Both the position numbers and the translations under genes were made by a program. The notes under the pieces were generated by a model. The model ran no database searches, was not told where the DNA came from, and worked only from the letters and a program-made list of their open reading frames with translations. From a virus: 40,877 bases of DNA. Shown piece after piece: positions 1 to 40,825 of the stretch (position 1 is the first letter of the stretch; each line of letters opens with the position of its first letter). The stretch lies in IMG/VR virus record IMGVR_UViG_3300025896_000055, positions 1 through 40,877 of that record; one strand, written 5' to 3'.

Positions 1-103
1 ACCAGCCCTCGTCAATGCCGTGGTCTGTTGCGCCAGCGTGCTTGAGATGCTTGACGACCATCGGGCCAATGAACCCACGATGGCCAACCACTAATGCTTT
101 CAT
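1..103 (-). CDS. NAD-dependent epimerase/dehydratase, N-terminal fragment (copy of 39872-40825)
   Basis: This is the start of the epimerase gene that is complete at 39872-40825, duplicated only because the contig ends overlap. It is cut by the window edge. The ATG (103-101) overlaps the TGA of the RmlD-like gene (102-100) as ATGA, so RmlD and the epimerase are one translationally coupled pair on the closed genome. A Shine-Dalgarno site, AAAGGA, lies eight bases before the ATG. It should not be counted as a second gene. Confidence 0.9.
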   Translation of the reverse strand, partial: MKALVVGHRGFIGPMVVKHLKHAGATDHGIDEGW

Positions 104-156
104 CGCTTGATCCTTTCTTCGGCACGAGGGCCGCTGATGTATTCTTGCATTGCCTC
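1..156. repeat. Terminal redundancy, left copy
   Basis: These bases match the last 155 bases of the window (40723-40877). There is one substitution (TGGTCTG here, TGGACTG at the right end) and one extra T near base 144. Such direct end repeats usually mean a contig read once round a circular or circularly permuted phage genome, giving about 40,722 bp. The small differences look like read error or population variation. A true short packaged terminal repeat is possible but cannot be told apart here. Confidence 0.9.
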
Positions 157-942
157 AGCCCACGTGCGGAAGCGCGGGAGCCGTGTATTAATTAGCGCAC
201 CATACTTCGGGCGCGTCTGGTCAAAGCGGAAGGAGCCTGTGATCCTCCCCTTGTTGCGTGCCATCTGTCGGGCAACGCGGGCAAACTCCATCCAGTTGGT
301 GGAGCCTTGGTTCACGAGGTGGTAGATGCCGTTGGACTGCGCCCCAGCCAAGTCGACCAGATGCTCCGCCATATCGGGGAGGTAAGTCGGGCTGAAGAAC
401 TGGTCAGTCGGCAGGTCAATCTTGTTATTGGTGGAGGTAATCATATCCACGAAGCTTGGCTTCATTGGCGATGGGTACACGCCCCACGGGCTGCTGATGC
501 GTGCCACCACGCCACCACGTCGCAGCGTCTCCGCCTCGCCCTGGAACTTGGTCTGCCCGTAGATGCTCAACGCACCGTGGGTCACGGCGTCTTCGGTGAG
601 CGCACGACCCTCTTCGTTCAGATCAAAGACATAGTCTGTGGAGATATAGACCTGCTTCGCGGCGTCGCCAATGATCTTTGGAAGTTCAACGTTCGCAGCG
701 ACAGCAAGCAGCGGTGTCCGTTCGCAAAGACCAATGTCCCGCAGCGCGGCACAGTTGATGACACCAGTCACATCGTCGTTCCGCAGTTGCTGGGCAATGG
801 TCTCAGGAGTATAAGACACAAAAACGCCCGCCTCAGCATCGGGCTGAAGCGAGCGCGTATAAACCTTGAACCGCGCATTGCGACGGCGCAGTTCAGCGAT
901 GACGTGTTGTGCGACCTGACCCGACCCTATGACCCCGTACAT
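100..942 (-). CDS. rfbD: dTDP-4-dehydrorhamnose reductase-like protein (RmlD/RfbD family)
   Basis: A 280-aa short-chain dehydrogenase of the extended RmlD type. Family members reduce dTDP-4-keto-6-deoxy-hexose with NAD(P)H as the last step of dTDP-rhamnose synthesis in the cytoplasm. Visible marks are an N-terminal nucleotide-binding loop (GVIGSGQVAQ), the family signature STDYVFD near residue 100, a YGQTK catalytic YxxxK about 30 residues later, and the C-terminal RPKYGALINT pattern typical of RmlD. Length is normal (280-300). The ATG follows GGAGGGTCGG, a leader also found at the glycosyltransferase at 6431. It is coupled by ATGA to the epimerase. Substrate specificity is inferred; related 4-keto-sugar reductases look alike. 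Confidence 0.8.
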   Translation of the reverse strand: MYGVIGSGQVAQHVIAELRRRNARFKVYTRSLQPDAEAGVFVSYTPETIAQQLRNDDVTGVINCAALRDIGLCERTPLLAVAANVELPKIIGDAAKQVYISTDYVFDLNEEGRALTEDAVTHGALSIYGQTKFQGEAETLRRGGVVARISSPWGVYPSPMKPSFVDMITSTNNKIDLPTDQFFSPTYLPDMAEHLVDLAGAQSNGIYHLVNQGSTNWMEFARVARQMARNKGRITGSFRFDQTRPKYGALINTRLPRFRTWAEAMQEYISGPRAEERIKR

Positions 943-965
943 CCGACCCTCCAGTTTACGTTAGA

Positions 966-2096
966 TTATTTTAGCACACTCTTCGGAGCGTAACGCTTGC
1001 CGCGCCACACCAACTCGGTGCCAGTCCACGACGCGAAGTCTGGCTGCCACGCCCCAGCCTGATCGCCCCACAGTTCAATGACTGCGAAGCCTGCCGACCA
1101 ACGGCTGACCTGATGCTGCGCGAGGTAGCCCAGCTCCGTCCGTCGGCACATCATCCCCGTGGAGATGGCGGCGGTGCGGCGAGCCTCGATGCCAGCGAAA
1201 CCGCCGATGGTCTCAAAGGCAACGCCCTGCGAGTGGTCGTGTCCGCCAACGACGGAGACGCCAGACGCCTTGACGATTGGCATAATGCTTGCCCCGCCAC
1301 CCGTCGTCCGCGAGTAGGTGCCGTGGGTAGCGATGAGGTCTGGAGCAATCTGGTAGTACGAACGGAGATGCTCTGGTCCAGAGAACGCTACGCCCTCAGA
1401 AATGCACGGCTGGATGTCCAGCGCGTCCAGTCGCAGCAAGTTGGCAAGCGACAGGATCTCGCGTCCCTCAGAGTCCGAGAGACCTACGAGATCAGGAGCC
1501 TTCTTTGCCAACCACTTGGAGAAGCGGGCTTCGTGGTTCCCATAAAGAAAAAAGATCTGTGCATCTGGCCCAGCCGATGCGCGGATCTCTGCGAGTCTCC
1601 GATGCGTGTGCGCTAACTCCTGCTGCACTGGCATCCCCAGACGCGGGTCCTTGTCGTAGGCGCTGACCGCCGTCAGGTCAAGGATGTCTCCTGTGAGGAC
1701 AATGCGATCTGGTCGCTCTGCCGCAAGGAATGTCAGGAACGAAGCGTACACCTCTGGGTCCTCAAAAGGAAACTGGAAGTCACCTGCTGCAACGACCAAC
1801 TCATTCGTTGACTCACGCCGTTCTCCAATCCTCTGAACATAATCCAAATGCAGAACATCGACCGATGTGATATAGTCCCCAGACGCTGGGGGGGTAGGGG
1901 GGGTTAAATCTCTCTTAACGAGTCCCCCTTCAGAGGAGGTAGATACTGGGGAGGGGGTATGGGGGAGGGGGCTAGAAAGCAGAAACTTCTGGTAACGCTT
2001 TTGCGCCTGGTCCTTGGTGAGACCGAGCCTCGCCCCAATAATTGAGAACGACATACCCTTTGATCGAAGCTCGTGAATGTCCAGATCTAGACTCAC
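966..2096 (-). CDS. Calcineurin-like metallophosphoesterase with N-terminal helix-turn-helix
   Basis: A 376-aa protein beginning with a helix-turn-helix-like segment (SFSIIGARLGLTKDQAQ, residues about 17-33), then a Pro/Ser/Thr-rich linker, then a metallophosphoesterase domain. Metal-site motifs in order are GDFQFPF (D106; the usual D-x-H is D-x-Q here), GDILD (D137/D140), GNHE (N187/H188), HGTYS (H258) and GHDHS (H286/H288). I start it at GTG 2096 because GGAGG lies four bases upstream and the GTG overlaps the TGA of the preceding gene. An ATG 24 codons earlier has no such support. Substrate unknown; phage members include nucleases and phosphatases. The DNA-binding-like N-terminus favours a nucleic-acid substrate, which is inference. 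Confidence 0.75.
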   Translation of the reverse strand: MSLDLDIHELRSKGMSFSIIGARLGLTKDQAQKRYQKFLLSSPLPHTPSPVSTSSEGGLVKRDLTPPTPPASGDYITSVDVLHLDYVQRIGERRESTNELVVAAGDFQFPFEDPEVYASFLTFLAAERPDRIVLTGDILDLTAVSAYDKDPRLGMPVQQELAHTHRRLAEIRASAGPDAQIFFLYGNHEARFSKWLAKKAPDLVGLSDSEGREILSLANLLRLDALDIQPCISEGVAFSGPEHLRSYYQIAPDLIATHGTYSRTTGGGASIMPIVKASGVSVVGGHDHSQGVAFETIGGFAGIEARRTAAISTGMMCRRTELGYLAQHQVSRWSAGFAVIELWGDQAGAWQPDFASWTGTELVWRGKRYAPKSVLK

Positions 2097-2335
2097 AGTG
2101 CCTCCAAGATTTTCATTATCAGAGTAATCAAGATGCCCACAGCGGACACAGTGATTCCCACTTTCCATCTTAGCGCAATACCCGTTTCCTTGCTGATCTC
2201 CTCCGCGGTGGAAGACTTTGCCACGGCGACCTCAACATCACGGAGGCGGCCATCAATGGCATCTAGGCGAGCAGAGATCTCCGTCCTAACCTCTTGGATG
2301 GATTGGAGGATATTGGCAAACTGGCTACCCGTCAC
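2093..2335 (-). CDS. Holin-like / XhlA-like membrane protein
   Basis: An 80-aa protein with an N-terminal coiled-coil-like helix (residues about 5-45, rich in E, R, D and I/L/V) and one C-terminal transmembrane segment (GITVSAVGILITLIMKI, about 60-76). This layout matches XhlA/haemolysin-type phage membrane proteins that help release endolysin, but also small tail-linked membrane proteins. It lies just after the tail genes, a common place for lysis genes. The GTG start overlaps the TGA of the Gp37-like gene, and its own TGA overlaps the next GTG. A separate, better lysis pair sits at 20873-21660, so its role is uncertain. Confidence 0.5.
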   Translation of the reverse strand: MTGSQFANILQSIQEVRTEISARLDAIDGRLRDVEVAVAKSSTAEEISKETGIALRWKVGITVSAVGILITLIMKILEAL

Positions 2336-3603
2336 GGCTTCTCTTTGCCCTTGCGGCCACGGTTTGAGAGGTGATCTGGACCACTGACGGTAGAAGGACC
2401 TTGGCGATTCTTGCCGCCAGCCTTCTTGATGTTAGAGTCTGACTTGTACGGGCTGACCTCAGTGTCTGCCTGGTTGCGGTTATAGAAGTCAAATGTTAAG
2501 GATTCTGAACCATCTTCCCGACCGACCCACTCCTGTCCACGTAGGGTAAGGTTGGTGTTGAGAGAGACAATGCCCCTATTGATGATGACCCGAATGTCAT
2601 CTCCAAGATTGTAGTCCTTGTACGGAACAACAGCGCCATCGCTGAGTGCAACTGTGAGTTCCTTGATCTTCTCTGGGCTGGACTCGTAGAGGTTCTGCGC
2701 CGCCTTCTTGGTGGCAGAGGCAGATGAGACAACATCCTGCTGGATGTCCAGCCGCTCAATCACGCCATAGGTTGCTAGAATTGCTGTAGTAGATGACGCG
2801 GTAACTGACCAGATACGCGAAGATGTTGAAACAAATTGGTTAGTGGAAATCAATAGGGCCTTGGTGCGAAGGCTCTTGAAGTTTGGGGTGTAGGAGAATC
2901 GCTTGACGTTGGCGCCGTAAGAGAGCGTCAACTTGTTGTTGATCGCAGTTGAGTAGTTCTGGTCAATAAAGAACTTGTTGTAGCTGGTAGTGTCCGTCTC
3001 AATCCGATTGCCGAAGACAGCCTTAGTGGTTGTTCCCTCTTGGGCAATAGCACAGACATTGCGGAGGAAGTCTGTTCGAGGCTCTCCAGCAGTGAAGATG
3101 TCATAGGTCGTTGCTGATCCGTTGATGGTGGACTCAACGCTGATGAATCCAAGGCGCGAGTTAGTGGCAGTTCGGGCGGCACTTAGTTCTGCCTGGACGA
3201 TATACCCAAGGGTCTTATTGTCGTAGGTGACCGTCGCTCCACCAAGCGCCGCCGTCGGGTCGGTCAGCGTCTGGTTGAGGACGGTCATATAGTCAATGCC
3301 ATAGAAGACGACCTCGTCATCAGTGGCGACATAGTCCTGAAGAATGCCGTTGCCAATGGTCCGATAGATGGAATCATCTTCGTCAAACCGCTCAACGCTA
3401 TAGTGCCGCTCTAGCGGAACGCACTCCGCGATCTGCGGATGATTGTATGGCAGAGTAAAGAACATCTCGCCGCCCTCATTGAGGTACGACGAGACGCCGA
3501 TATACTTCGCATCCTTGATGGTTGCGCGCAGGCTCCCGCGACCACGGCCTGTCCCAGTGGTGTCCCAGAGGGAGATGCGGAATGCCGATTGCGTGTATGG
3601 CAT
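2332..3603 (-). CDS. Minor tail protein, Gp37-like / tail-associated protein
   Basis: A 423-aa protein following the Dit-like gene. Its N-terminal half (GEMFFTLPYNHPQIAECVPL, then GIDYMTVLNQTLTDP) and its C-terminal DDIRVIINRGIVSLNTNL region fit the siphovirus Gp37-like / prophage tail-hub family, which caps the tail tube and carries fibres or lysins. The ATG (3603) shares its A with the TAA of the Dit-like gene (TAATG); a GTG three codons upstream is less likely. The extreme C-terminus is basic and Gly/Ser-rich (GGKNRQGPSTVSGP). No enzymatic domain is seen. The call rests on remembered family patterns and gene order. Confidence 0.6.
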   Translation of the reverse strand: MPYTQSAFRISLWDTTGTGRGRGSLRATIKDAKYIGVSSYLNEGGEMFFTLPYNHPQIAECVPLERHYSVERFDEDDSIYRTIGNGILQDYVATDDEVVFYGIDYMTVLNQTLTDPTAALGGATVTYDNKTLGYIVQAELSAARTATNSRLGFISVESTINGSATTYDIFTAGEPRTDFLRNVCAIAQEGTTTKAVFGNRIETDTTSYNKFFIDQNYSTAINNKLTLSYGANVKRFSYTPNFKSLRTKALLISTNQFVSTSSRIWSVTASSTTAILATYGVIERLDIQQDVVSSASATKKAAQNLYESSPEKIKELTVALSDGAVVPYKDYNLGDDIRVIINRGIVSLNTNLTLRGQEWVGREDGSESLTFDFYNRNQADTEVSPYKSDSNIKKAGGKNRQGPSTVSGPDHLSNRGRKGKEKP

Positions 3604-4574
3604 TAGTACCACGCCTCGGTATATGTCACAAGGATCTGCTCTGGGATACTTGCCCCAGTGTAGGTTGTCGTCATTGTGGTTGCCGAGTCGTCCGTTGGCG
3701 GGATTGCCCCGAAGAGATAGGTCGTGGTGTCAATGACATCCTGACGCAGACTCTTGACATAGGCTCCGCCAACCGCTGACCGAACCCCTCGACTCACAGT
3801 TTGGTTATCAAAGTCTATGTACCATCGGACCTCGCTACTTGCCGTCTTGGCTGGGAAGTCTAGGCTGTTCAACTTTAGCGCCACACTGTCAAAGGTAAAC
3901 GTCACCGAGGTAATCGTTGCCGAACTGTAGGTTGATGCGGTGGAGAAGACAATCTCAAACGATGGGTAGACAACTGCCGAGCCAAGGTGTGGGAATGATG
4001 TCGTTGCAGAAGATGAGGTAATCGTTATTGACCTCTCTGTCTGGCGGAACTTGTATGGCTTACGGGCAACGAAGGTAAGCTGCACATTGGCGGCAAAGCC
4101 CTTGGCCGATACACCAACAGATTGTGCTGAAGTTAACTGCACCGCTGGGATGGAGATTGGGCGGACCTTCATCTGCATAGGGATATAACCCGATGTAAAG
4201 TTAGTCGTGTCAATCGTTGCCTGCGAGAAGGCAAGGTTCCTGAACCCTTCGTCGGTCTGGTATTCTCGTGGGATTGGTCGTGAGGAATCAAGGAGCGCCT
4301 GCACCCTGTCGTGGAAGTCAGCGATGGACGAGCCGAAGACGCCGCACACGATGGAGAGCGTCTTGGTACCAAGGTAGGCATCTCCCGCGTCAACTCCGTC
4401 GTGGAGCGCACGCTTGTCTACATACCCTGTGAGCGCCACATCGCCAAACGTAGCGGACAGAACCTTATACCCACTGAGCGGGGACGAGGTCGTGACCTCG
4501 GACGCTGCAATGCTGTTGAGATTGATCGTGCTGGAGCCAGCGATCTGGTAGGTAATCGGAAGATTAAAATCCAT
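3603..4574 (-). CDS. Distal tail (Dit)-like protein
   Basis: A 323-aa protein with a two-part layout typical of distal tail proteins. The N-terminal half resembles a tail-tube-like domain (residues about 1-165, including FGSSIADFHDRVQALLDSSR). A jelly-roll-like C-terminal half includes VALKLNSLDFPAKTASSEV and the WYIDFDNQTVSRGV pattern seen in many Dit proteins. Dit forms the hub that joins tail tube to adsorption apparatus. Upstream is a connector protein and downstream a Gp37-like hub protein, the usual order. Start and stop both use TAATG couplings. No canonical tail-tube gene was recognised nearby. Confidence 0.65.
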   Translation of the reverse strand: MDFNLPITYQIAGSSTINLNSIAASEVTTSSPLSGYKVLSATFGDVALTGYVDKRALHDGVDAGDAYLGTKTLSIVCGVFGSSIADFHDRVQALLDSSRPIPREYQTDEGFRNLAFSQATIDTTNFTSGYIPMQMKVRPISIPAVQLTSAQSVGVSAKGFAANVQLTFVARKPYKFRQTERSITITSSSATTSFPHLGSAVVYPSFEIVFSTASTYSSATITSVTFTFDSVALKLNSLDFPAKTASSEVRWYIDFDNQTVSRGVRSAVGGAYVKSLRQDVIDTTTYLFGAIPPTDDSATTMTTTYTGASIPEQILVTYTEAWY

Positions 4575-5212
4575 TATCCGATCCTCCGAATGCGACGAAG
4601 CCGTGCCTCCTCGCGTCGGACCCGCGCCTGGTTAGAGAGCGCAATCTGGTTCATTGAGAGGGCAGAGACATCGGAGTTCCCCGACTGTACCTGCCACTGC
4701 TGGAAGGCAACGCGGTCAGAGAGGAGTCGATTGAACGCCTCTGCCTGCGCCCAGACGCGGACGGACGAAATGGCAGAGACATCCATATCCGTCGTTGCGG
4801 TGCTGGTAGAGAGCTGAACAAACCCAGAGTAGCCAAAGATCTTTAGCGTGGCTGGGGATACGAGTGAGTAATGCGGTGGGAAAAAGAGGATGTTGTTGTG
4901 AAGTTCCCAGCCAGAGTCTGGACCATCACCGCTTGATGGCAAGAGGCTCTCGCGGTACTGCCCTGAACTGTCGTAAACATCTACGCGGAACGGCCACGAG
5001 ACCGTCGTCAGGGCAATGGAGTTGACTGCGCCAGAGATTGGCTGCGTCACCGCTGTGGTCTGGATTGCTTCCTTTGGGTAGAACCCATTGACCCAGTCAA
5101 TGCCTGAGTTGATGAGGTCGTTGACCTCCGTGTCGCTCCACGTCGCCCCGTTAGGGTCGCGGAGATCTGACCGTACCGATGTCCTAAGTGCTGAGAGTGT
5201 CTCTCCTGCCAT
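4574..5212 (-). CDS. Head-tail connector/adaptor-like protein
   Basis: A 212-aa protein opening with LRTSVRSDLRDPNGATWSD, followed by a helix (VNDLINSGIDWVNGFYP), a beta-rich middle and a long basic C-terminal helix (NQARVRREEARLRRIRR). This matches phage adaptor proteins that dock under the portal (helical start, beta sandwich, helical tail). The position between the capsid block and the Dit-like protein supports this. The ATG lies 29 bases inside the 3' end of the preceding glycosyltransferase gene. Adaptor function is inferred from pattern and order. Confidence 0.55.
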   Translation of the reverse strand: MAGETLSALRTSVRSDLRDPNGATWSDTEVNDLINSGIDWVNGFYPKEAIQTTAVTQPISGAVNSIALTTVSWPFRVDVYDSSGQYRESLLPSSGDGPDSGWELHNNILFFPPHYSLVSPATLKIFGYSGFVQLSTSTATTDMDVSAISSVRVWAQAEAFNRLLSDRVAFQQWQVQSGNSDVSALSMNQIALSNQARVRREEARLRRIRRIG

Positions 5213-6431
5213 TCTTCCAAATCCCCTTATGCTCTACTGCCCACTTGAAGGCATCGGCCCATTCCTTGGCACGATCCTTATAATCGTATTCCTTGAGTAC
5301 CCGCTCCTTAGCGGCACCTGCGAGTTGTTCTCGTAGGTTTTTGCTTCTTACTAGACTCTTGACTGCGTCAAACCACTGCTGTCGACCACGGACGACGAGT
5401 CCGTCAACACCGTGGTTGACCATTGAGTACGGAGCATCTCCATACTTGAAGCCTTCACCAATGAATGCAGCTCCAACCATTGCATATTCCAGCCAATGGA
5501 GTTCTGATTTGCAGCGGTCAAAGTCATCGCCGCCGAGTGGCGCGATTCCAATGTCGCCGTGGCTCGCTGCGAGGGTCTCCGCAAACTGGCGAATGTTCTC
5601 AACGTAGGGATACGCTTCATCAAAGAACGGTGCAATGACGTGTTCTGTTCCTGGGTTTACTCCGATGAAGACATTCCAGAGTTCCTTGCGGAGGTCTTGG
5701 ATACCCTTGCCAGCGTATCCTCCTTCCCACTTGCCTCGTTCGTTTGGGAATCCGCCGTAGTCGCGCATCCGCGCCGTGCTGCCGTAATAGACCACGCGTG
5801 GCTTGTCACCGCCGTGTTCTGGGCGAGTGCGACTTGTCGTATAAATCGAAGGATCAATTGCATTTCTAATCACCCGAAGATTGCTGTTGAGATGTGAATA
5901 CGCATCCTTGATTGGACCCGTGCTGACGGTAACGAGGTCAGCCCTCCGTGCCATCCGCTCAATGAGCGGGATTTCCGCCTGGACATCTGGCCAGTAGCCA
6001 TTCCACTTGCGGATCTGGAAGTGGTTATCGTCGGTCTCATAGACCATTGCCTTGTTAAACATCTCTGACTCAAACGCTGGCCACATCCACTCGGTGACGG
6101 CATCGCGGAGTTCCATCTTGTGCGGGTGCGTAAGAATCTTTGCTTGATCCTTTGTCGCATCTCCGCAAGTGTTGCACTTAGCAGAGCAGTTGTAGTATCG
6201 GCGGAACATCACGAGGTCTGCCCACTCGATGTCGCTGGTATCTACCGAGAGTAGATTCCTTTTCATTGCTTCTTCTTGTGTCAAGCCCTGGGCGCCGTCT
6301 TTGGCGATGAAGTTGATCTTGTCAATGTGCCTGACATTGATGCCCATCTTCTTCCACTCTTCGTCATACATATGACCACGGAAGTAGGCGCAAGGTCCCT
6401 GCTCGGCAGTACCCCATACGAGAATGTTCAT
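5184..6431 (-). CDS. Glycosyltransferase, GT4/GT1-like
   Basis: A 415-aa protein with the two-Rossmann layout of GT-B enzymes. Visible are an N-terminal beta strand MNILVWGTAEQGPCAY, the interdomain region LRVIRNAIDPSIY (about 180-195) followed by RVVYYGSTARMRDYGG, and a C-terminal donor-site stretch GIAPLGGDDFDRCKSELHW with EYAMVGAAFIGE, resembling the EX7E-type donor site. A CSAKCNTCG cluster near residue 83 may bind metal. It transfers a nucleotide-activated sugar to an unknown acceptor. It lies directly after the major capsid gene, so virion glycosylation is attractive but unproven. The ATG follows AGGAGGGTCGG. It ends in TAG, 29 bases inside the connector gene. Confidence 0.75.
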   Translation of the reverse strand: MNILVWGTAEQGPCAYFRGHMYDEEWKKMGINVRHIDKINFIAKDGAQGLTQEEAMKRNLLSVDTSDIEWADLVMFRRYYNCSAKCNTCGDATKDQAKILTHPHKMELRDAVTEWMWPAFESEMFNKAMVYETDDNHFQIRKWNGYWPDVQAEIPLIERMARRADLVTVSTGPIKDAYSHLNSNLRVIRNAIDPSIYTTSRTRPEHGGDKPRVVYYGSTARMRDYGGFPNERGKWEGGYAGKGIQDLRKELWNVFIGVNPGTEHVIAPFFDEAYPYVENIRQFAETLAASHGDIGIAPLGGDDFDRCKSELHWLEYAMVGAAFIGEGFKYGDAPYSMVNHGVDGLVVRGRQQWFDAVKSLVRSKNLREQLAGAAKERVLKEYDYKDRAKEWADAFKWAVEHKGIWKNGRRDTLST

Positions 6432-26894: not shown

Positions 26895-26916
26895 ATTATT
26901 AAGGTTTCTTAATAAT
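26895..26916. promoter_or_regulatory. Perfect AT-rich inverted repeat, possible operator
   Basis: ATTATTAAG-GTTT-CTTAATAAT: two perfect 9-bp arms and a 4-base centre in an otherwise GC-rich region. It sits between outward-facing TTGACA boxes at 26881-26886 and 26937-26942, where a repressor or activator dimer could act on both runs. Confidence 0.45.
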
Positions 26917-26942: not shown

Positions 26943-27167
26943 GGGTTCTTTATCAGGGGGTTGGCCCGCCTTATCAGTGGGGTGTTCAGGTGCGGGAGGG
27001 CATTCCACCCCCAAACCGAACGCCCGTTCTATATGCTCGGGGGGGAGGGGTGGCACAAATTGTGCCATCGTGCGGATACTGGGGGGGAGTATACCCCGAT
27101 ACGCCCGAGGTGGGGGATAGTGGGCGAGCTGGTAGGGGATTATCGAGGGGGATAGCCCGAGCTATGA

Positions 27168-27183
27168 GGGAGGGGAGGGGGGG
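27168..27183 (+). other. G-quadruplex-like run
   Basis: GGGAGGGGAGGGGGGG has four or more runs of three Gs with one-base loops, a strong G4-forming pattern on the plus strand. A similar run, GGGGGGGAGGGGTGG, lies at 27039-27053. Immediately after 27183 the strand becomes C-rich. Confidence 0.45.
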
Positions 27184-27185
27184 CG

Positions 27186-27250
27186 ATACCCCCTAGCCCC
27201 TAGCTCATACCCCCTAGCCCGTACCCGTAGGCCATACCCCCCGAGCTAGG
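27186..27250. repeat. Short direct repeats, iteron-like
   Basis: ATACCCCCTAGCCC occurs at 27186-27199 and again at 27207-27220, with a degenerate third copy (ATACCCCCCGAGC) from 27234. Spacings are 21 and 27 bases. The segment CCCCTAGCTCATA between copies (27197-27209) is identical to sequence after the intergenic hairpins at 28543 and 29857. Replication iterons or relics of the intergenic cassette are both possible. Confidence 0.4.
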
Positions 27251-27367
27251 CCCGCACGCCGTAGGCCCCCCAACGCGCCACGCTACGCCCCGATGATCCA
27301 CGGCCCGCCCCGATACACCGCCCCGCCCCCTATCGGGCCGCTACGGGCCGCCCTAGGCCGTATATAT

Positions 27368-27386
27368 AATATTCATTATGAATATT
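27368..27386. promoter_or_regulatory. Perfect palindrome beside a TATAAT box
   Basis: AATATTCAT-T-ATGAATATT: 9-bp arms around one base, in an AT island within GC-rich DNA. TATAAT at 27365-27370 could be the -10 of a promoter for the plus-strand run, though I see no good -35 17 bases upstream. An activator- or repressor-controlled early promoter fits. Confidence 0.45.
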
Positions 27387-27400
27387 GGTAGGGTACTTGA

Positions 27401-27462
27401 CGAGCTACACGCGGCCCCTTAGTCTTACCCTAGCGGCCGAGCTATACCCTACGTGTAGCTCG
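27401..27462. repeat. Long-loop inverted repeat before the first plus-strand gene
   Basis: CGAGCTACACG (27401-27411) and CGTGTAGCTCG (27452-27462) are perfect 11-bp inverted arms separated by 40 bases; GGGTAC and GTACCC extend the arms further out with a 4-base offset. The structure ends 26 bases before ATG 27489 and could fold the early mRNA leader. Confidence 0.45.
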
Positions 27463-27488
27463 TACCCGCCGAGAATAAGGGGGACGCT

Positions 27489-27749
27489 ATGAATAAGGTA
27501 AGCGCATACGAGCTGGGCCGAGTAATGGGCGTAGCTCGTGGGCAATCAATCAACGGGGCCGCAACGCCCGCCGAGCTGGCCGCCGTCGAGGTCGCCACGC
27601 TCACGATGATCGAGGCCGTACGGGCCGAGGCCATCGGCGGCAATATCAACAACTACGAGGAGCACGAGGAGCTCGTGCGCGGCGTGCGGGACGGCCAGAA
27701 CTACGCAATGGGCCGAGCTACGAAGCTTGGCGAGGCCGCCCGCGCCTAG
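27489..27749 (+). CDS. Hypothetical protein, 86 aa, first early gene
   Basis: An 86-aa Ala/Glu-rich, mostly helical protein starting MNKVSAYELGRVMGVARGQS. No family recognised. The ATG follows AAGGGGGACGCT, the G-rich ribosome site used by the whole island. It ends in TAG and is followed by the first intergenic hairpin cassette. As first gene after the control region it may be an early host-takeover or regulatory protein. Very GC-rich; the reading frame is supported by the ribosome site and third-position bias. Confidence 0.55.
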   Translation: MNKVSAYELGRVMGVARGQSINGAATPAELAAVEVATLTMIEAVRAEAIGGNINNYEEHEELVRGVRDGQNYAMGRATKLGEAARA

Positions 27750-27758
27750 CGGGTACAC

Positions 27759-27785
27759 GGGGCGGGGCCGAGCTGGCCCCGCCCC
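27759..27785 (+). promoter_or_regulatory. Intergenic hairpin cassette 1
   Basis: GGGGCGGGGCC-GAGCT-GGCCCCGCCCC, a perfect 11-bp stem ten bases after a TAG stop, followed by CCTAGCATATGA and the ribosome site GGGGGA. No U-run, so it is not a classic terminator. First of four similar cassettes. Confidence 0.7.
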
Positions 27786-27806
27786 CTAGCATATGAGGGG
27801 GAAGCT

Positions 27807-28103
27807 ATGAGCTACGAGCTGGACGATATCAAGGGGGACGAGAATCTCATCGAGGCGATGGGCGAGCAATACGCGGGGGACGGCCGCACGTACGCGGACG
27901 AGCTAGCGGCGGCCGATACGTGGGCCGCCGTATATGAGGCCCTCGTGGGGGCGTGCGCGGTAGCACGTATGAGCGGGGACTATTGCGCCGCGGAGAATAT
28001 CCGCGAGGCCGTGGGCCGCTACCACGCCGAGCTCATCGAGGGGCGCACGTGCGCTATATACGCCCGCCAGCTCGCGCAATGGGTTGCGCACGCTACCCGC
28101 TAG
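27807..28103 (+). CDS. Hypothetical protein, 98 aa
   Basis: A 98-aa acidic helical protein starting MSYELDDIKGDENLIEAMGE, with AADTWAAVYEALVGACAVAR and RQLAQWVAHATR helices. No family recognised. It has the GGGGGA ribosome site at the end of cassette 1 and a TAG stop before cassette 2. It lies in the same frame as the previous gene, separated only by TAG with no other stop in the gap. Confidence 0.55.
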   Translation: MSYELDDIKGDENLIEAMGEQYAGDGRTYADELAAADTWAAVYEALVGACAVARMSGDYCAAENIREAVGRYHAELIEGRTCAIYARQLAQWVAHATR

Positions 28104-28121
28104 GGGTATGATCGAGGGGCG

Positions 28122-28144
28122 GGGGGGCCGCGTTGCGGCCCCCC
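28122..28144 (+). promoter_or_regulatory. Intergenic hairpin cassette 2
   Basis: GGGGGGCCGC-GTT-GCGGCCCCCC, a perfect 10-bp stem with GTT loop, then CCTAGCCCGATAGGATA and the GGGGGA ribosome site of the next gene. Loop and lower stem are nearly identical to cassette 3. Confidence 0.7.
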
Positions 28145-28169
28145 TAGCCCGATAGGATAGGGGGACGAT

Positions 28170-28535
28170 ATGGCAAGAATCAAGCTACCAGCGGCCTACG
28201 AGAATCGGGCCGCCTACGAGGATCGAGCGGCCGAGCTGGCCGCCGAGCTGGACGGCGGGGCGGGTGTATTGTGTGGGATTCTTACCCGCTACCTCGGCCC
28301 TACTAACAATAGAGGGAGCAGGATCGTAGCCGAGCTGGCGGGCGGCGCGGGCCGCCCTAGCGTAGCCGTAGGCTACCCGTACGCGCTCAACGAGCTAGGC
28401 CGCCACACGTTAGCGGCTATGGCCCTCGTGGACGCGCTCAACGAGCTAGACGGCCCCGATAGCCTCGATCATATGAGGATCAAGGGGGCGTGCGCTACGG
28501 CCGAGGGCTACGCGTTCACAATCGGGCGAGCATAG
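28170..28535 (+). CDS. Hypothetical protein, 121 aa
   Basis: A 121-aa protein starting MARIKLPAAYENRAAYEDRA, with Ala/Glu-rich helices, AVGYPYALNELGRHTLAAM and a C-terminal DHMRIKGACATAEGYAF. No known domain. Start chosen at the ATG six bases after GGGGGA; stop TAG precedes cassette 3. Its place just before the clamp gene suggests a replication-linked role, but nothing in the sequence proves it. Confidence 0.55.
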   Translation: MARIKLPAAYENRAAYEDRAAELAAELDGGAGVLCGILTRYLGPTNNRGSRIVAELAGGAGRPSVAVGYPYALNELGRHTLAAMALVDALNELDGPDSLDHMRIKGACATAEGYAFTIGRA

Positions 28536-28542
28536 CCGAGCA

Positions 28543-28565
28543 GGGGGGCCGCGTTGCGGCTCCCC
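28543..28565 (+). promoter_or_regulatory. Intergenic hairpin cassette 3
   Basis: GGGGGGCCGC-GTT-GCGGCTCCCC, a 10-bp stem (one G-U pair in RNA) with the same GTT loop as cassette 2, then CCTAGCTCATAGCACGAA and AGGGGGA before the clamp ATG. Confidence 0.7.
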
Positions 28566-28591
28566 TAGCTCATAGCACGAAGGGGGAGAAT

Positions 28592-29845
28592 ATGAGCAAC
28601 GGGACGCTATCGACGGCGGCGGGGGTCCGCCGCTATATGAGGGCCGTAGGGTCCAAAGCGGCACGGCGTAGCACGCCCGTGCTGGTGTATGAGGGCGAGC
28701 GGGGCTATGCGCTAGGGGCGCACGTAGCCGAGGGCGCGAGCGTATACGCTGGCGATACCGCAACGGCGCACGCCGCCGCTAGGGGGCTATTAGTCCCCGC
28801 GCGGGTTATTACGGGCGCACGTATCGACGCGCTACTATCGGCGGGCGGCGAGCTGGCCGAGCTGGTACGGGCGGCCGATATCGTAGGCGGCCGAGTTGAT
28901 GAGGCCACGCGGCCCGTTGAGCTGGCGGGCGCGTTGAGCGTTGAGCTGGTAGCGGGTCAAGGGTGGGGGATAGACGGCCTCACGTGGACGGCGCGGGCCG
29001 CTTCACGGGATACCGCCACGCGGCCGATTATGGCGGCCGTGGTAGTCGAGGCCTACGCGGGGCCGTTCGGGCTACGCCCGCGCTACGTTGCGGCGGATAA
29101 CTACCGCCTCCACGTATACGGGGACCGCGTACCAACGGCCGAGGCGACGGGGCTAGTACCCTACGCGCTGGCCGAGTACGTAGCCGAGCTGGCGGGGTCT
29201 ACACCCCGTGTACGGCGCGGCGATAGGGCAACGAGGCCGAGCGCGTGGATCGGGCGCGGGTCCGCTACGTGGTATGGCGAGCGGCACGGGTCCCTGCTCA
29301 TTGAGGCCGAGGGGGTAGCCGTGCGATCCGAGGATAGGGGCGCACGCTATCCCGCGTTCGAGTCCATTATCCCTAAGGGCGGCACGCATACGGCGCGGGT
29401 ATCGCTACCCTCGGCGGATATGGTCCACGCCCTACGGGGGACGCTGGACGCGGCCAAGCTCATCGCCGCACGGGCGGGGGATACGCTGGCCGAGCGGGCC
29501 ACGTACGCGCTAGGGCCTAACGGCCTAGCCGTAGCCGCCCTCACGGGGCGGCCCGCTACCGAGGGTGAGGCCGTCCACGTATGGCCCTACGGGCTACACG
29601 TTGAGGGTAGCGGCGAGGCCACGATGGCCGCCGAGTACGTGCTGGACGCGCTGGCGGATCGGCACGGGGCGCACGTTGAGCTGCTGCTACACGGCGAGTA
29701 TCGGCCCGTCATCATTAGCGGCCCGCTATCGGGCGGGGCGAGCGATTATACGGCCGTCATAATGCCCCTACGGGGGCTAAGGGATAGCCGCGCCGCCGAG
29801 CTGGCGGGTATCGAGGCCCGCGAGCTAGTAGCGGCGGGCGCGTAG
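28592..29845 (+). CDS. dnaN: DNA polymerase III beta-like sliding clamp
   Basis: A 417-aa divergent beta clamp that would encircle DNA and tether a polymerase. Best marks are in the second and third domains: RYVAADNYRLHVYG (about 165-178, matching the ATDGHRL-type clamp motif), YPAFESIIPK (about 252), SADMVHALRGTLDAAKLIA, YVLDALADRHG (about 350) and the C-terminal IMPLR, the clamp hallmark, followed by a 24-residue extension. Length fits (366-400 usual). Start ATG 28592 is eight bases after AGGGGGA; an upstream ATG (28490) lies inside the previous gene. Reading the gene I find no CAG and no GAA triplet in any frame, so all Glu codons are GAG. Confidence 0.75.
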   Translation: MSNGTLSTAAGVRRYMRAVGSKAARRSTPVLVYEGERGYALGAHVAEGASVYAGDTATAHAAARGLLVPARVITGARIDALLSAGGELAELVRAADIVGGRVDEATRPVELAGALSVELVAGQGWGIDGLTWTARAASRDTATRPIMAAVVVEAYAGPFGLRPRYVAADNYRLHVYGDRVPTAEATGLVPYALAEYVAELAGSTPRVRRGDRATRPSAWIGRGSATWYGERHGSLLIEAEGVAVRSEDRGARYPAFESIIPKGGTHTARVSLPSADMVHALRGTLDAAKLIAARAGDTLAERATYALGPNGLAVAALTGRPATEGEAVHVWPYGLHVEGSGEATMAAEYVLDALADRHGAHVELLLHGEYRPVIISGPLSGGASDYTAVIMPLRGLRDSRAAELAGIEARELVAAGA

Positions 29846-29856
29846 GGTATAGGGCA

Positions 29857-29878
29857 GGGGGCGGCGTTAGCCGCCCCC
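29857..29878 (+). promoter_or_regulatory. Intergenic hairpin cassette 4
   Basis: GGGGGCGGC-GTTA-GCCGCCCCC, a perfect 9-bp stem, then TAGCTCATAGCATA and GGGGGA before ATG 29903. The segment CCCCTAGCTCATAGCA is identical to that after cassette 3. Confidence 0.7.
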
Positions 29879-29902
29879 TAGCTCATAGCATAGGGGGATA
29901 CG

Positions 29903-30247
29903 ATGAGCGAGTCGATGAGCTGGCAGGATAGCGGCAACTGGATTGAGTGTACGTGCGGCAACGCCGTCCATACGGGGGGATTCTATCCCGCCGATAGCGC
30001 AACGGGGGCCGAGCTAGAACCAGACGCGGGAGGCCCGTGGGATCAACGCACGTACGTATGCGGCGGGTGCGGGGTGTACGGCGTACCAGCTACGCCCGCC
30101 GCTAATGCTAGGTGTTTTGAGTGCGGCAGGGTAGGCGGGTCGCTCGATGAATCGGCCTCACTATGCCGCGAGTGCGAGCGGGTAGTGTTTGATGATCGGC
30201 GCGGCGTAGCACGAGTGCGGCGCAACCCCGCCGAGGCTACCGAGTGA
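29903..30247 (+). CDS. Zinc-ribbon protein, 114 aa
   Basis: A 114-aa protein with four cysteine pairs: CTCG near 16, CGGCG near 53, CFECG near 71 and CRECE near 88, the spacing of two zinc ribbons. Between them are acidic and Gly-rich stretches. The C-terminus is basic (RRGVARVRRNPAEATE). Such small ribbons bind DNA, RNA or polymerase subunits. Not assigned to a family. The TGA overlaps the GTG of the RlpA-like gene. Confidence 0.55.
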   Translation: MSESMSWQDSGNWIECTCGNAVHTGGFYPADSATGAELEPDAGGPWDQRTYVCGGCGVYGVPATPAANARCFECGRVGGSLDESASLCRECERVVFDDRRGVARVRRNPAEATE

Positions 30248-30747
30248 AGCTCTACGCCTACGCCCTCACGCTGGGCCTCGTGGCGAGCGTTGCGTTGGGC
30301 CATATCTACGACGGGGGGCGGGTAGGGCCGTCCCCCGTACTCCTCTACGAGGACGCGGCCGCGCTCGTCCCTGACCCTACGCCTATGGCGTACGGCGTGA
30401 AGGGTCGAGCTACGTGGTACGCGGCCCGTTGCCCTGATGGCGTGAGCTTCTTAGGGCGCACCGATACGTGTCTGCCCTACGTCGCCAAGCGGGACGGCGG
30501 ACGGGGTGGCGAGCTGGTGTCCTATGCCGCCACGGGGTGGTATCGCTATGGTATGGCCCCAGTTGAGGCCATCGTATACTTCCACGCAACGGGCCGCTCG
30601 GTGCGGGTCGTAGTGCGTGATTATTGTGATGCGTGCGCGAAGGGTCGCGCCGTGATCGACCTATCGCCTACGGCGTTTTTAGCAGGGGGCTTGACGCTGG
30701 GGCAAGGGGTTGCTAGGGTGAGCGTGCGCTACTTAGGCGCACGATAG
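30244..30747 (+). CDS. Secreted RlpA-like double-psi beta-barrel protein
   Basis: A 167-aa protein with an N-terminal signal or anchor helix (MKLYAYALTLGLVASVALG) and a double-psi beta-barrel: GRATWYAARCPDG near residue 54, VRVVVRDYCDACAKG near 118, and VIDLSPTAFLAGGLTLGQGV near 138, the DLS-AF-LG pattern of RlpA/expansin-like domains. RlpA proteins cut or bind denuded peptidoglycan outside the membrane. It could aid lysis, block superinfection or alter the wall early. Cysteines near 63, 77, 123 and 126 may form disulfides after export. The GTG start overlaps the previous stop (GTGA). Last gene of the GC-rich island. Confidence 0.7.
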   Translation: MKLYAYALTLGLVASVALGHIYDGGRVGPSPVLLYEDAAALVPDPTPMAYGVKGRATWYAARCPDGVSFLGRTDTCLPYVAKRDGGRGGELVSYAATGWYRYGMAPVEAIVYFHATGRSVRVVVRDYCDACAKGRAVIDLSPTAFLAGGLTLGQGVARVSVRYLGAR

Positions 30748-30764
30748 TAGAGAAGGGGGAAGCG

Positions 30765-30905
30765 ATGAATAGCAAGCTGTTCGAGCATATCAAGAGGACG
30801 CAGAAGGAGAATAAGCGCCGCCTATTCTGGTGGCGTATGACGCTGGCGTGGCTGGCGTTCTCCATCTTTATGGCAGGGGTAGCAGTCGGGAGGATGTCGG
30901 TATGA
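30765..30905 (+). CDS. Single-span membrane protein, 46 aa
   Basis: A 46-aa gene with GGGGGA seven bases before its ATG, ending in ATGA overlap with the next start. The N-terminus is basic (FEHIKRTQKENKRRLFWWR) and followed by one membrane helix (MTLAWLAFSIFMAGVAVG), so it should sit with its basic end in the cytoplasm. Function unknown. Confidence 0.65.
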   Translation: MNSKLFEHIKRTQKENKRRLFWWRMTLAWLAFSIFMAGVAVGRMSV

Positions 30906-35398: not shown

Positions 35399-35439
35399 GA
35401 TCCCCTGATGGCTCCTCCCATCAGGGGATCATTCTTTTT
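35399..35439 (+). terminator. Rho-independent terminator between convergent runs
   Basis: GATCCCCTGATGG-CTCCTC-CCATCAGGGGATC forms a perfect 13-bp stem with a 6-base loop, followed by ATTCTTTTT: a textbook plus-strand terminator, 30 bases after the methyltransferase stop. The minus-strand gene ending at 35429 reads into the hairpin, which could also slow or stop the minus run; no T-run exists on that side. Confidence 0.85.
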
Positions 35440-36528: not shown

Positions 36529-36685
36529 AGTCGACCTCCTTGATGATGGCGTTGGCGGCATAGGCTGCCAACTGTTCCTTGTTTGGTTGACCCTCAAGGC
36601 CATCCAATAGAAGCTTAAAGATATGGAGCCATACCTGCGAGACAAGTACGGCATCAGGCTTGCGCTTGCGCGCAGGGACTGCCAT
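36512..36685 (-). CDS. Hypothetical protein, 57 aa
   Basis: A 57-aa gene whose ATG shares its A with the RmlC stop (TAATG) and whose end overlaps the next gene by 17 bases. It starts MAVPARKRKPDAVLVSQVWL and is helical (HIFKLLLDGLEGQPNKEQLA). No family recognised. The exact coupling is the main evidence. Confidence 0.55.
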   Translation of the reverse strand: MAVPARKRKPDAVLVSQVWLHIFKLLLDGLEGQPNKEQLAAYAANAIIKEVDFGYAT

Positions 36686-37236
36686 TACTCTGACTCTAGT
36701 GTTCGGAGCAGGTCGTCGCCAGCACGCTTCCAGTTGGCAAGCGTCTCGCTTGTACCGTCCGTCTTGACTGATGGTGCAGCCTTGTCCTTGTCGCTGATGA
36801 TGAGCTGCGCTCGGATCTTCTCAAGGTCAGCCTCAATGTCTGGCAACCCGATGTAGGAAATACCGATCTCGTGTTCTGCTCGATAGATGTCGGTTGTTGC
36901 GTAGGTCACAGTGGTGTCCTCAAGTGCGAGGAAGCCACGGCCCCACCACCACGGGGCATAGAAGACCTTGCCGTCCCCAGCCTCCATCGTCTCAGAGATG
37001 ACCTTGCCATACAGGACAGAGGTTGGATCAAGGTTCACGGCATAGACGATAGCCTTGCCGCTGGCGATCCACATTGACTTGTCCATCAGGCGCTGGGCGT
37101 GGATGCCACGGAAGGTTCCGCCAAGCGACCACGACATATTGATCTGGCTGAAGTTGAATCCCTTGAGGACTTCGCTGAAGTAGCCTCGACTATCCTTGAA
37201 TACGTTTGCCTTAATGACTCGTGGCTCAAAGCTCAT
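36685..37236 (-). CDS. rfbC: dTDP-4-dehydrorhamnose 3,5-epimerase-like protein (RmlC family)
   Basis: A 183-aa cupin epimerase: family members invert carbons 3 and 5 of dTDP-4-keto-6-deoxy-glucose, the step before RmlD. Marks are DSRGYFSEVLKG, RGIHAQ (His46, the family base), GKAIVYAVNLDPTS and YATTDIY. The usual HGF segment is WWWGRGF here, replacing a conserved His. A C-terminal tail of about 50 residues is extra and charged. Start ATG 37236 has AAGGAG eight bases upstream. It pairs functionally with RmlD at 100-942 though 4 kb away; RmlA and RmlB were not found. A changed substrate is possible. Confidence 0.75.
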   Translation of the reverse strand: MSFEPRVIKANVFKDSRGYFSEVLKGFNFSQINMSWSLGGTFRGIHAQRLMDKSMWIASGKAIVYAVNLDPTSVLYGKVISETMEAGDGKVFYAPWWWGRGFLALEDTTVTYATTDIYRAEHEIGISYIGLPDIEADLEKIRAQLIISDKDKAAPSVKTDGTSETLANWKRAGDDLLRTLESE

Positions 37237-37597
37237 CGCTAGTCTCCTTCCCATAATGCTGGACAAAGTCGTCAAAATCTATAATCGCCAGCGCCCGACG
37301 ACGAGTACCTGCTCCTGGCGAATCACCAACCACAAGGACTGCCAACTGGTCAGCCTTTGGGTTAAGTTCTCTTAACCATTTATCTAGGCGTTCTGGGTAC
37401 GACAGGCCGACCTTACATTGGATCACAAAGTGTCGAGCCTCTACGTCGTTCTTGCCGCCATACATCCCTGTCCTTGTGCCGTTCAGCCGAGCAGCGACCT
37501 CGCGCTCAAAGCTATTGCCGCGCTGCCTAGCCCTGGCCCCGCGACGGGACCGCTCTGCATTCGCATCATCTATTGCCAAGTCCTTCATCTTACCCAC
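37226..37597 (-). CDS. PD-(D/E)XK nuclease, resolvase-like
   Basis: A 123-aa basic protein with GNSFEREVAARLNG (Glu31), GGKNDVEARHFVIQCKV (Asp51, then Q60-x-K62) and a C-terminal LAIIDFDDFVQHYG strand-helix. This is the PD-(D/E)xK core of archaeal-type Holliday junction resolvases and related small phage nucleases, with Gln in place of the second acidic residue. Next to annealing and exonuclease genes, a role in resolving recombination or packaging branches is likely. GTG start with GAGGG upstream. It overlaps RmlC by 11 bases. Confidence 0.6.
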   Translation of the reverse strand: MGKMKDLAIDDANAERSRRGARARQRGNSFEREVAARLNGTRTGMYGGKNDVEARHFVIQCKVGLSYPERLDKWLRELNPKADQLAVLVVGDSPGAGTRRRALAIIDFDDFVQHYGKETSDEL

Positions 37598-39201: not shown

Positions 39202-39875
39202 CCTCTACACTCCTTCAACCACTGGCAACCCTTGCAGGGCCATTCCGCCTTCATATCCTTCCCCCTTCGGGACGGCAAGCGAGGCGGCTTGCGCTTGCTG
39301 AAGTATTGTAGCACCTTCAGGATGCGAAGGGCGCGGTCGCGCCAGCCACGGTCTAATCTGAACTCAAGGAGCTTGAAGTCCTCGGCGGCGGCGTAGATGA
39401 CACGCGCCTCGACTGGCTCGCCCAACTCCTTCTCTAGGATGTAGGCATAGACCGAAGCCTGAACCGCGTGTTCGGGCTTGACCTCACGGATGTACTGCAT
39501 CCCTCGGTTGGTTGTGGACTTATACTCCCAGACTTCGCGCCTGCCGTCAGGCCACTTGACCAAGGCATCTACGTTGCCAGAGAAGTTGAACTCTGGCAGC
39601 AGGACTGGCACCTCTTCTTGGAATTCCAGCAACTCGCCAGCGGCAAGGGCATCCTTGCCCGCCTTGTTCAGCACCTCAGCCACGGCGTGTCCGCGCTCAA
39701 AGATGCGGTAGAGATTATCTGGGAATGGATTGCTTGGCTCCACCTTCTCTGCGGCGTACCATTGCTGGCGCACGCAGGCACCAAGTAACGAGCCGCGCCA
39801 GCGGGCTACAGCAGGACGCCCAACCTCTGCCTTGCGGGCAAGATACCCGTCAAGAATAGCGGAGAAGTTGCTCAC
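39198..39875 (-). CDS. Cas4-like PD-(D/E)XK exonuclease with Fe-S cysteines
   Basis: A 225-aa RecB/Cas4-type exonuclease. Cysteines at 34, 214, 217 and 223 show the one-plus-three pattern that holds an iron-sulfur cluster in Cas4 and AddB. The nuclease core is GNVDALVKWPDGRREVWEYK, with a following Gln-rich QASVYAYILEKEL helix. It would resect DNA ends for the ERF annealing protein. No CRISPR array or Cas1/Cas2 is present, so a CRISPR role is unlikely. GTG start overlaps the epimerase stop (GTGA). Confidence 0.8.
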   Translation of the reverse strand: MSNFSAILDGYLARKAEVGRPAVARWRGSLLGACVRQQWYAAEKVEPSNPFPDNLYRIFERGHAVAEVLNKAGKDALAAGELLEFQEEVPVLLPEFNFSGNVDALVKWPDGRREVWEYKSTTNRGMQYIREVKPEHAVQASVYAYILEKELGEPVEARVIYAAAEDFKLLEFRLDRGWRDRALRILKVLQYFSKRKPPRLPSRRGKDMKAEWPCKGCQWLKECRG

Positions 39876-40825
39876 TCAAGTCCTTCTTTGTAGATCTCGG
39901 TGCGTGTGCGGAGGCTGCCCTCGTAGGAGAGCAGCGTCTGCTCGACCTGCGTAATCTCACGCGGGTCGCTGGTCTTCGCCAGTTCGCTATCCCGAATCTC
40001 AAAGTGGTAGAGTAGCCGACTATTGTCCATCCAGTAGTCACGCTTGTCGCCGTCGCTCCCAGTGTACGGGGAGACCTCGGCGCCAGTCGCGTTGCCGATG
40101 CGGTCAGCCAACTGCGTCACCGTGACGTTCTCCGAGCAGGCGTTGTAGATACCCTGTACCGCAGGGAGGATTGCGCCGAGCGAGATGATCCAGCCAGCGT
40201 CGTCCACGTTGAGGATCGGGCGCTTTGCTTCGGACTGTGGATGAATGTGCTTCTTGTGGATTGCTTCCCAGGTAAAGGCGTTGACCACCAAGTCGCGGCG
40301 CATATTCGGAGCGGAACCCCAGAGGGTGCCGAGGCGCAATGAGACCCAAGATCGCTCCTGCTGTGTCAGCCACTCGTCCATCTTGACCTTGCTCTTGGAG
40401 TAGGCGGTCAGCGGATCGGTTGCCGTGTCTTCCTTGGCAATGTCGCCGTTCGCGCCGTAGACCGATGCCGAGGAGATGTAGACGAAGCGACCGTTTGGGT
40501 TGCGATCCCAGAAGTCTTCTGCCTTCATCTTCGGCAGCTCGTAGTTAGACCAGTAGGTATCAAACTCATCAAGGTTGCCCATATGGTCGTTGCTCACGGC
40601 GGCAAGCCACACGATCACATCGTAGGTACCAAGCGCATCAATGTCAGCGAAGCGGGCGTTGTTGCCATTGCGCTCTGAGTGTGGGATATGCTCGGCGTTG
40701 AGACCACGGATGCTCTCATCGTACCAGCCCTCGTCAATGCCGTGGACTGTTGCGCCAGCGTGCTTGAGATGCTTGACGACCATCGGGCCAATGAACCCAC
40801 GATGGCCAACCACTAATGCTTTCAT
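39872..40825 (-). CDS. NAD-dependent sugar epimerase/dehydratase
   Basis: A 317-aa extended short-chain dehydrogenase. It has the NAD-binding GHRGFIG near residue 8 (GxxGxxG), a YDVIVWLAAVSNDHMG strand, the YISSASVYG loop with catalytic Ser near 118, and AYSKSKVKMDE (YxxxK near 142). WVSLRLGTLWG follows, as in GalE/RfbB-like enzymes acting on nucleotide sugars. It is the coupled partner of the RmlD-like gene across the junction (ATGA). Exact sugar unknown; epimerase, 4,6-dehydratase or reductase are all possible, and a missing RmlB function could be supplied here. Confidence 0.78.
   Translation of the reverse strand: MKALVVGHRGFIGPMVVKHLKHAGATVHGIDEGWYDESIRGLNAEHIPHSERNGNNARFADIDALGTYDVIVWLAAVSNDHMGNLDEFDTYWSNYELPKMKAEDFWDRNPNGRFVYISSASVYGANGDIAKEDTATDPLTAYSKSKVKMDEWLTQQERSWVSLRLGTLWGSAPNMRRDLVVNAFTWEAIHKKHIHPQSEAKRPILNVDDAGWIISLGAILPAVQGIYNACSENVTVTQLADRIGNATGAEVSPYTGSDGDKRDYWMDNSRLLYHFEIRDSELAKTSDPREITQVEQTLLSYEGSLRTRTEIYKEGLE

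Follow-up and report, generated by a model that had tools for sequence, protein, structure and literature searches.

The closest described counterparts of the element examined here are the start-associated sequences SAS and ESAS of cluster K mycobacteriophages and cluster EF Microbacterium phages, in which an inverted repeat is followed by a conserved ribosome-site segment (PMC3203893, PMC7302621). As those reports describe them, they are repeated, intergenic and placed just 5' of the starts of many non-structural genes of various families, all of which holds for our element too (PMC3203893, PMC7302621). The ESAS repeats of cluster K were judged by their authors not to keep base pairing (PMC3203893). 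Two other motifs of Microbacterium phages are also repeated upstream of starts: that of cluster EC is 18 bp long, begins with TAG and lies 21–30 bp before the ATG, and that of cluster EG is an 18-bp inverted repeat 14–22 bp before the ATG (PMC7302621). The EC motif, TAGaCTATaGG, resembles TAGGGTATAGGGC of our element; the passages of PMC7302621 that deal with it report no leader hairpin, and the EG palindrome is a fixed sequence with a 2-bp centre.

Other counterparts are functional. A stem-loop at the 5' terminus stabilises mRNA, and how far it stands from the ribosome site makes a difference (PMC7509114, citing Emory 1992 and Sharp 2005). The leader stem-loops of E. coli ompA and of B. subtilis are likewise near the 5' end and at a set distance before the ribosome site (PMC7509114). 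These known stabilisers belong to single genes, whereas the device described below recurs before many early genes. The early RNase III sites of phage T7 are also intergenic hairpins of an early operon, but they are longer duplexes and have no promoter at each. The early region of phage phiC31 contains several similar intergenic promoters and is like the present group in that respect; a leader stem of the class defined below precedes none of its 18 early genes that follow a gap of 40 nt or more.

How does the present locus compare with these systems? The window, by which we mean the whole stretch of 40877 nucleotides that was analysed, is a 40.9 kb uncultured virus record, whose minus strand carries a head/tail module and whose plus strand carries an early operon that includes genes for a clamp-like protein, a DnaB helicase and a cytosine methyltransferase. 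It has no close relatives among named phages, by DNA or by terminase; these gave distant capsid and helicase matches only, and scans of genome collections for a host returned no match. Its relatives are metagenomic IMG/VR records, in part fragments, with mechanical gene calls. L004 is a near twin (99.5%), and further relatives form groups A (L008, L009, L010, L014), B (L075–L079), C (L080–L087) and D (L088–L095). Several sugar-nucleotide epimerase- or glycosyltransferase-like genes lie at 100–6431, 36685–37275 and 39872–40825.

Positions 1–40877 contain no CATG and no CCGG, for expectations of roughly 145 and 120. Both are likewise missing from the available stretches of the close relatives L067 and L070–L072, and both occur in L073; group C (L080, L082–L087) lacks CCGG and has CATG, and group D (L088–L095) lacks CATG and has CCGG. 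Avoidance of these two restriction-type tetranucleotides is strong and lineage-dependent. Positions 26950–30250, the cassette region, have 67% GC against 52–57% in the flanks, and a word usage of their own in which CTAG, AGCT and CTGG are high and CTGA is zero.

Within this region the original prediction placed four copies of one cassette, each made up of a TAG stop, a hairpin (stems of 11, 10, 10 and 9 bp), a CCTAGC segment, a ribosome site and an ATG. The hairpins are where it placed them, with 10–11 bp in copy 3 and 9–10 bp in copy 4; the gene before each copy does end in TAG; and hairpin, CTAGC-containing linker, AGGGGGA and ATG follow one another in all four. All features are on the plus strand, and the ribosome-binding sites, each AGGGGGA, were read directly. 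Early gene 1 (27489–27749; 86 aa, no family found) ends in TAG at 27747 and is followed by copy 1, a hairpin of 11 Watson–Crick bp with loop GAGCT (27759–27785) and a ribosome-binding site at 27796–27802. Early gene 2 (27807–28103; 98 aa, no family found; TAG at 28101) precedes copy 2, whose hairpin (28117–28150) consists of a 10-bp core at 28122–28144 and an outer helix beyond a bulged A, with a ribosome-binding site at 28159–28165. Early gene 3 (28170–28535; 121 aa, phrog_3199, of unknown function; TAG at 28533) precedes copy 3, a hairpin of 10–11 bp with one G-U (28542–28566) and a ribosome-binding site at 28581–28587. Early gene 4 (28592–29845; 417 aa; TAG at 29843) encodes a product with a weak match to a DNA polymerase processivity factor (phrog_947, E=1e-7). 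Copy 4 has a hairpin of 10 bp with the A-T, 9 without it, and loop GTTA (29856–29879); its ribosome-binding site is at 29892–29898. Early gene 5 (29903–30247; 114 aa) is overlapped by the next gene, which has no element. Gene 4 is among the swapped small genes: it has a relative in L014 and none at this place in L008 or L009.

The sequence said to be common to copies 3 and 4 and the control region, CCCCTAGCTCATA, is present at 28562, 29875 and 27197. The CCTAGC segment is there too, and in copies 2–4 part of it forms the outer arm of the hairpin itself. Across the bulged A the outer arms read GGGC/GCCC in copy 2, GAGC/GCUC in copy 3 and GGGC/GCUC in copy 4, so that one outer pair is G-C, A-U and G-U in turn. 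The set of four was real but incomplete. Gene 1 has its own version of the element, spanning 27397–27488: a predicted promoter TTGACG-N17-TAGTCT (27397–27425; empirical p=0.002 among random positions), a leader hairpin CGAGCTATAC/GTGTAGCTCG (27438–27462; fold z=-3.0) and a ribosome-binding site (27478–27484). An operator-like palindrome, AATATTCATTATGAATATT, lies at 27366–27386, just 5' of this first early promoter. A fifth element (30691–30767) sits within the 3' end of a lytic-transglycosylase-like gene (30244–30747) and consists of a predicted promoter TTGACG-N17-TAGGGT (30691–30719; p=0.001), a hairpin CGTGCGCT/GGCGCACG (30723–30743), replaced at this place by a different stem in some relatives, and a ribosome-binding site (30754–30760) for the gene at 30765–30905.

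Are these hairpins more than a consequence of GC content? Against dinucleotide shuffles the fold energies of copies 1–4 give z = -1.8, -2.8, -3.7 and -4.3. The claim that composition alone does not explain them holds for the four copies as a set; copy 1, taken alone, could be composition. Elsewhere in the whole window, perfect stems of at least 9 bp with loops of 3–8 occur only at 26895–26916 and 35399–35430, without this layout. Taken together, the four cassettes are genuine and beyond chance. The hairpin at 35399–35430 is the strongest perfect one of the window (13 bp); it is followed by ATTCTTTTTC, lies close to where the rightward operon ends, and has the look of an ordinary terminator. 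On the minus strand, at 39275–39310, TACAAT is followed by a hairpin GCAAGCG/CGCTTGC and then by AGGGGGA and ATG; the stem reaches 11 bp in L008 and L009, and the hairpin leader design may serve a leftward gene too.

The recurrence in relatives that the original prediction called for is found in groups A, B and C, and group D is mostly without the element. We curated 44 elements of one layout by hand from 65 candidates, the window's four included; the small genes they stand between are largely different, and an objective filter, which kept 45, led to the same result. The end of the stem lies 14–30 nt (median 21) before the ATG in the 44 curated elements. A leader stem was defined as one of at least 7 bp with at least 6 G-C pairs, 12–32 nt before the start of a gene that follows a gap of 25 nt or more. 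Such stems precede 16 of 25 gap-preceded genes in group A and 23 of 37 in group C, against 0.2–0.25 for shuffled leaders, and 1 of 21 in group D; as the elements are related to one another, these counts overstate independence. Genes without an element often overlap the preceding gene. Across IMG/VR the strict cassette pattern occurs in 54 stretches, and its matches outside this phage group are without the hairpin or belong to other repeats.

What is kept among the elements is not the stem sequence. Stems vary in sequence and in length (GGCGGG, CGTGCGC, CTGCGGG, GTTGGC, GGGAGCC, GCGGCTGC and others), and in the syntenic leaders 3' of the transglycosylase-like gene different phages have the unrelated stems CGTGCGC, CTGCGGG, GTTGGC and CTGGC. 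There are 13 distinct six-base outer 5' arms, with GC, CG, TA and AT at the same pair; pairing in this count is complete by construction, and the diversity is its informative part. Base pairs were counted from the loop outwards because MAFFT on all elements, and alignments of subtype leaders, misplaced some arms. For the outer helix alone 37 of 40 cells are paired against 34.7 expected (p=0.09), a weak excess. With stems so variable in sequence and length, a profile of sequence plus structure would fit the window subtype alone. Judged by these comparisons, the element is an RNA structure that has been kept and not a single sequence-conserved RNA motif.

The original prediction recognised a repeated cassette kept while the genes change, but missed that the element often includes a promoter whose -10 box lies over the stop codon. 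In 32 of 45 elements TANNNT occurs 8–16 nt ahead of the stem, compared with 2–6 in neighbouring intervals of the same size, and TTG stands 16–19 nt upstream of the TANNNT in 22 of the 45. Since such a count starts from the hairpin, we also searched the loci blind to it, for TTGAC-N16-18-TANNNT with a ribosome site and an ORF behind it, which avoids choosing sites by hairpin. The blind search returned 41 sites, almost every one of them on the early coding strand; five local shufflings of the loci returned none. Behind 33 of the 41 there is a stem of at least 6 bp, against a mean of 11 and a maximum of 18 for shuffled leaders. Promoters of sigma-70 type, with TTGAC and TANNNT 16–18 nt apart and above chance, are thus a feature of the loci. 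Collection-wide, TTGACA-N16-18-TAGGGT followed by GGCGGG occurs in 19 stretches; 13 belong to this phage group and show the complete hairpin, and the remaining six appear to be chance matches. In group C (L083:510–545, L084:720–755, L087:5460–5500) GGGG...CCCC flanks some of the -35 boxes, and a small dyad with arms that change in step (CCCCGCTAGGGG, GCCGCTAGGC, GCCCGATAGGGC) lies in the promoter spacer.

TAGGGT is the common form of the -10 box, and its TAG in many cases also ends the upstream gene. Stop codons no more than 45 nt from a stem are TAG in 23 of 26 cases, as against 3 of 39 among the other genes of the window (2 of 30 on the minus strand, 1 of 9 on the right-hand side). We attribute the TAG ending of all four genes to a -10 box that contains the upstream stop. 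The overlap of box and stop codon would also place the hairpin at or near the 5' end of the mRNA; more than half of the elements have the predicted box 2–10 nt ahead of the stem.

In the window itself a sigma-70-type promoter is recognised only for gene 1, for copy 2 in the variant form TTGCGC-N17-TATGAT (28084–28112; p=0.008 in all loci, 0.006 in the GC-rich region), which spans the gene 2 stop codon (28101–28103), and for the fifth element. Copy 4 has a -10-like box TAGGGT (29843–29848), its TAG being the stop of gene 4, that scores p=0.002 alone and p=0.10 as a full promoter, the -35 being absent. Copies 1 and 3 have no -10 box and no recognisable promoter by matrix score (p=0.15 and 0.85); the matrix was trained partly on relatives it then scored, and the window copies were outside the training set. 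With the promoter absent at copies 1 and 3 and the -35 absent at copy 4, a 5'-end position is unsupported for three of the four reported copies. Moreover, predicted folds of several of these three copies pair bases upstream of the expected start site, and such an extended stem favours read-through transcription for the promoterless copies. On its predicted promoters the window is a mixture of promoter-plus-hairpin leaders and hairpin leaders within a longer message.

What might the cassette do? On balance we take it to be a transcribed leader module that serves a single small early gene as an expression adapter, and think this reading probable, if with some reserve. Its full form would comprise a -35 box, a TANNNT -10 box, a GC-rich hairpin near the 5' end of the mRNA, a short linker, a ribosome site and an ATG. 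A hairpin at the end of the message would block RNA decay that depends on the 5' end. It may also be a structural insulator, with its own bases tied up and the ribosome site some 10 nt downstream single-stranded, and the site would thereby be independent of translation of the preceding gene. The site is in fact free in most predicted folds. In copies 1, 3 and 4, which have no -35, hairpin and ribosome site would act in a message from upstream promoters, the first at 27397–27425. Finally, some 60 bp repeated between unrelated genes would offer homology for whole-gene exchange through an Erf-like annealing system, as a secondary role. Transcription start, decay protection, insulation and gene exchange are all inferred from sequence. 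Among the roles first proposed, RNA stabilisation or translational control appears to fit best, and recombination sites that shuffle early genes are plausible as a second role. By analogy, the element would be nearest in function to a 5' stem-loop stabiliser.

Could the order of these roles be reversed, the cassette being kept mainly because near-identical boundaries allow homologous or homeologous gene swaps? Between the window and L005 or L008 homology here is confined to the elements of about 60 bp, at 80–88% identity, and the flanking genes do not align; one window element matches three L005 elements between unrelated genes. Small gene families common to the groups occur in permuted order with elements at many of the joints, and about 27 nt upstream of the copy 1 hairpin are shared with L085:4700, coding in one and non-coding in the other. 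The window phage encodes an Erf-like annealing protein, a Cas4-like exonuclease and a RusA-like protein, and annealing proteins of the Erf type are described as recombining short diverged sequences (PMC2327257, PMC3945230). From this we infer that genes are exchanged at the elements. For a linker, however, sequence identity would be enough, and what these elements keep is structure, spacing and promoter, with stems of differing sequence; the shared pool also includes genes without an element that overlap a neighbour. As the primary explanation it seems to us unlikely.

Less probable again, though deserving consideration, is RNA processing of the type seen in the T7 early region, in which RNase III would cut the intergenic duplex to give single-gene messages. 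The position between genes of a co-directional early operon suits it, as does the lack of promoters at copies 1 and 3, and the stems of copies 2–4 extend across the bulged A, to about 15–17 pairs in copy 4. But the T7-type duplex is of about 20 bp; copies 2–4 reach about 15–17 only with bulges, most stems of the family, at 6–12 bp, are short for RNase III, and many lie directly behind promoters.

A DNA operator, with the inverted repeat as a protein-binding site, has been proposed for cluster K ESAS and for the 17-bp repeats of cluster O, and a repeated dyad near start codons is what it would look like; since it needs a conserved sequence, and stem sequences differ between our elements while pairing is kept, we consider it very improbable. 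Least credible is a translational switch, in which the G-rich 5' arm and the GGGGG ribosome site are alternative partners of the C-rich 3' arm and melting of the hairpin would therefore hide the site: CCCCCT and AGGGGG are complementary in the window copies, but the pairing is absent from relatives with AAGGAGG sites and from the fifth-element type, which has no C-run, and the freedom of the site in most predicted folds speaks against it as well.

Several identities were rejected outright. A T-run stands behind none of the 44 stems and the terminator scan of the window returned no cassette, which excludes intrinsic terminators; the RYYYAAC and GTTRRRY cores of integron attC sites occur in none of the 44 elements; the window has no Rfam 15 match at gathering score; and no tRNA was found. 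Nor is the element an SAS or ESAS. In place of a 13-bp SAS close to GGGATAGGAGCCC, linker and site read CATAGCATAGGGGGA, a different sequence in a broadly similar layout, and in place of imperfect 17-bp repeats of fixed consensus there are paired stems of 6–12 bp with 13 arms. Unlike ESAS, it keeps pairing with different sequences, its repeat sequence is another one, and it often has, ahead of the hairpin, a promoter that shares the stop codon of the gene before. The start-associated sequences of clusters K and EF are its closest named relatives in kind; the element occupies the same place and is not a member.

Start-associated repeats are known in several phage groups without an assigned function, and the present group is deep enough to reveal what is kept. 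It is RNA structure, often behind a promoter, rather than a protein-binding sequence, and this gives the repeat a testable function. We suggest, tentatively, that a single joint of 60 bp may combine the upstream stop, the -10 box, a 5'-end hairpin, the ribosome site and homology for gene exchange, so that genes would arrive with ready-made expression signals; we regard so complete a combination as possible rather than probable. A standard joint for dropping in and expressing foreign genes would be a concrete molecular basis for mosaic early regions.
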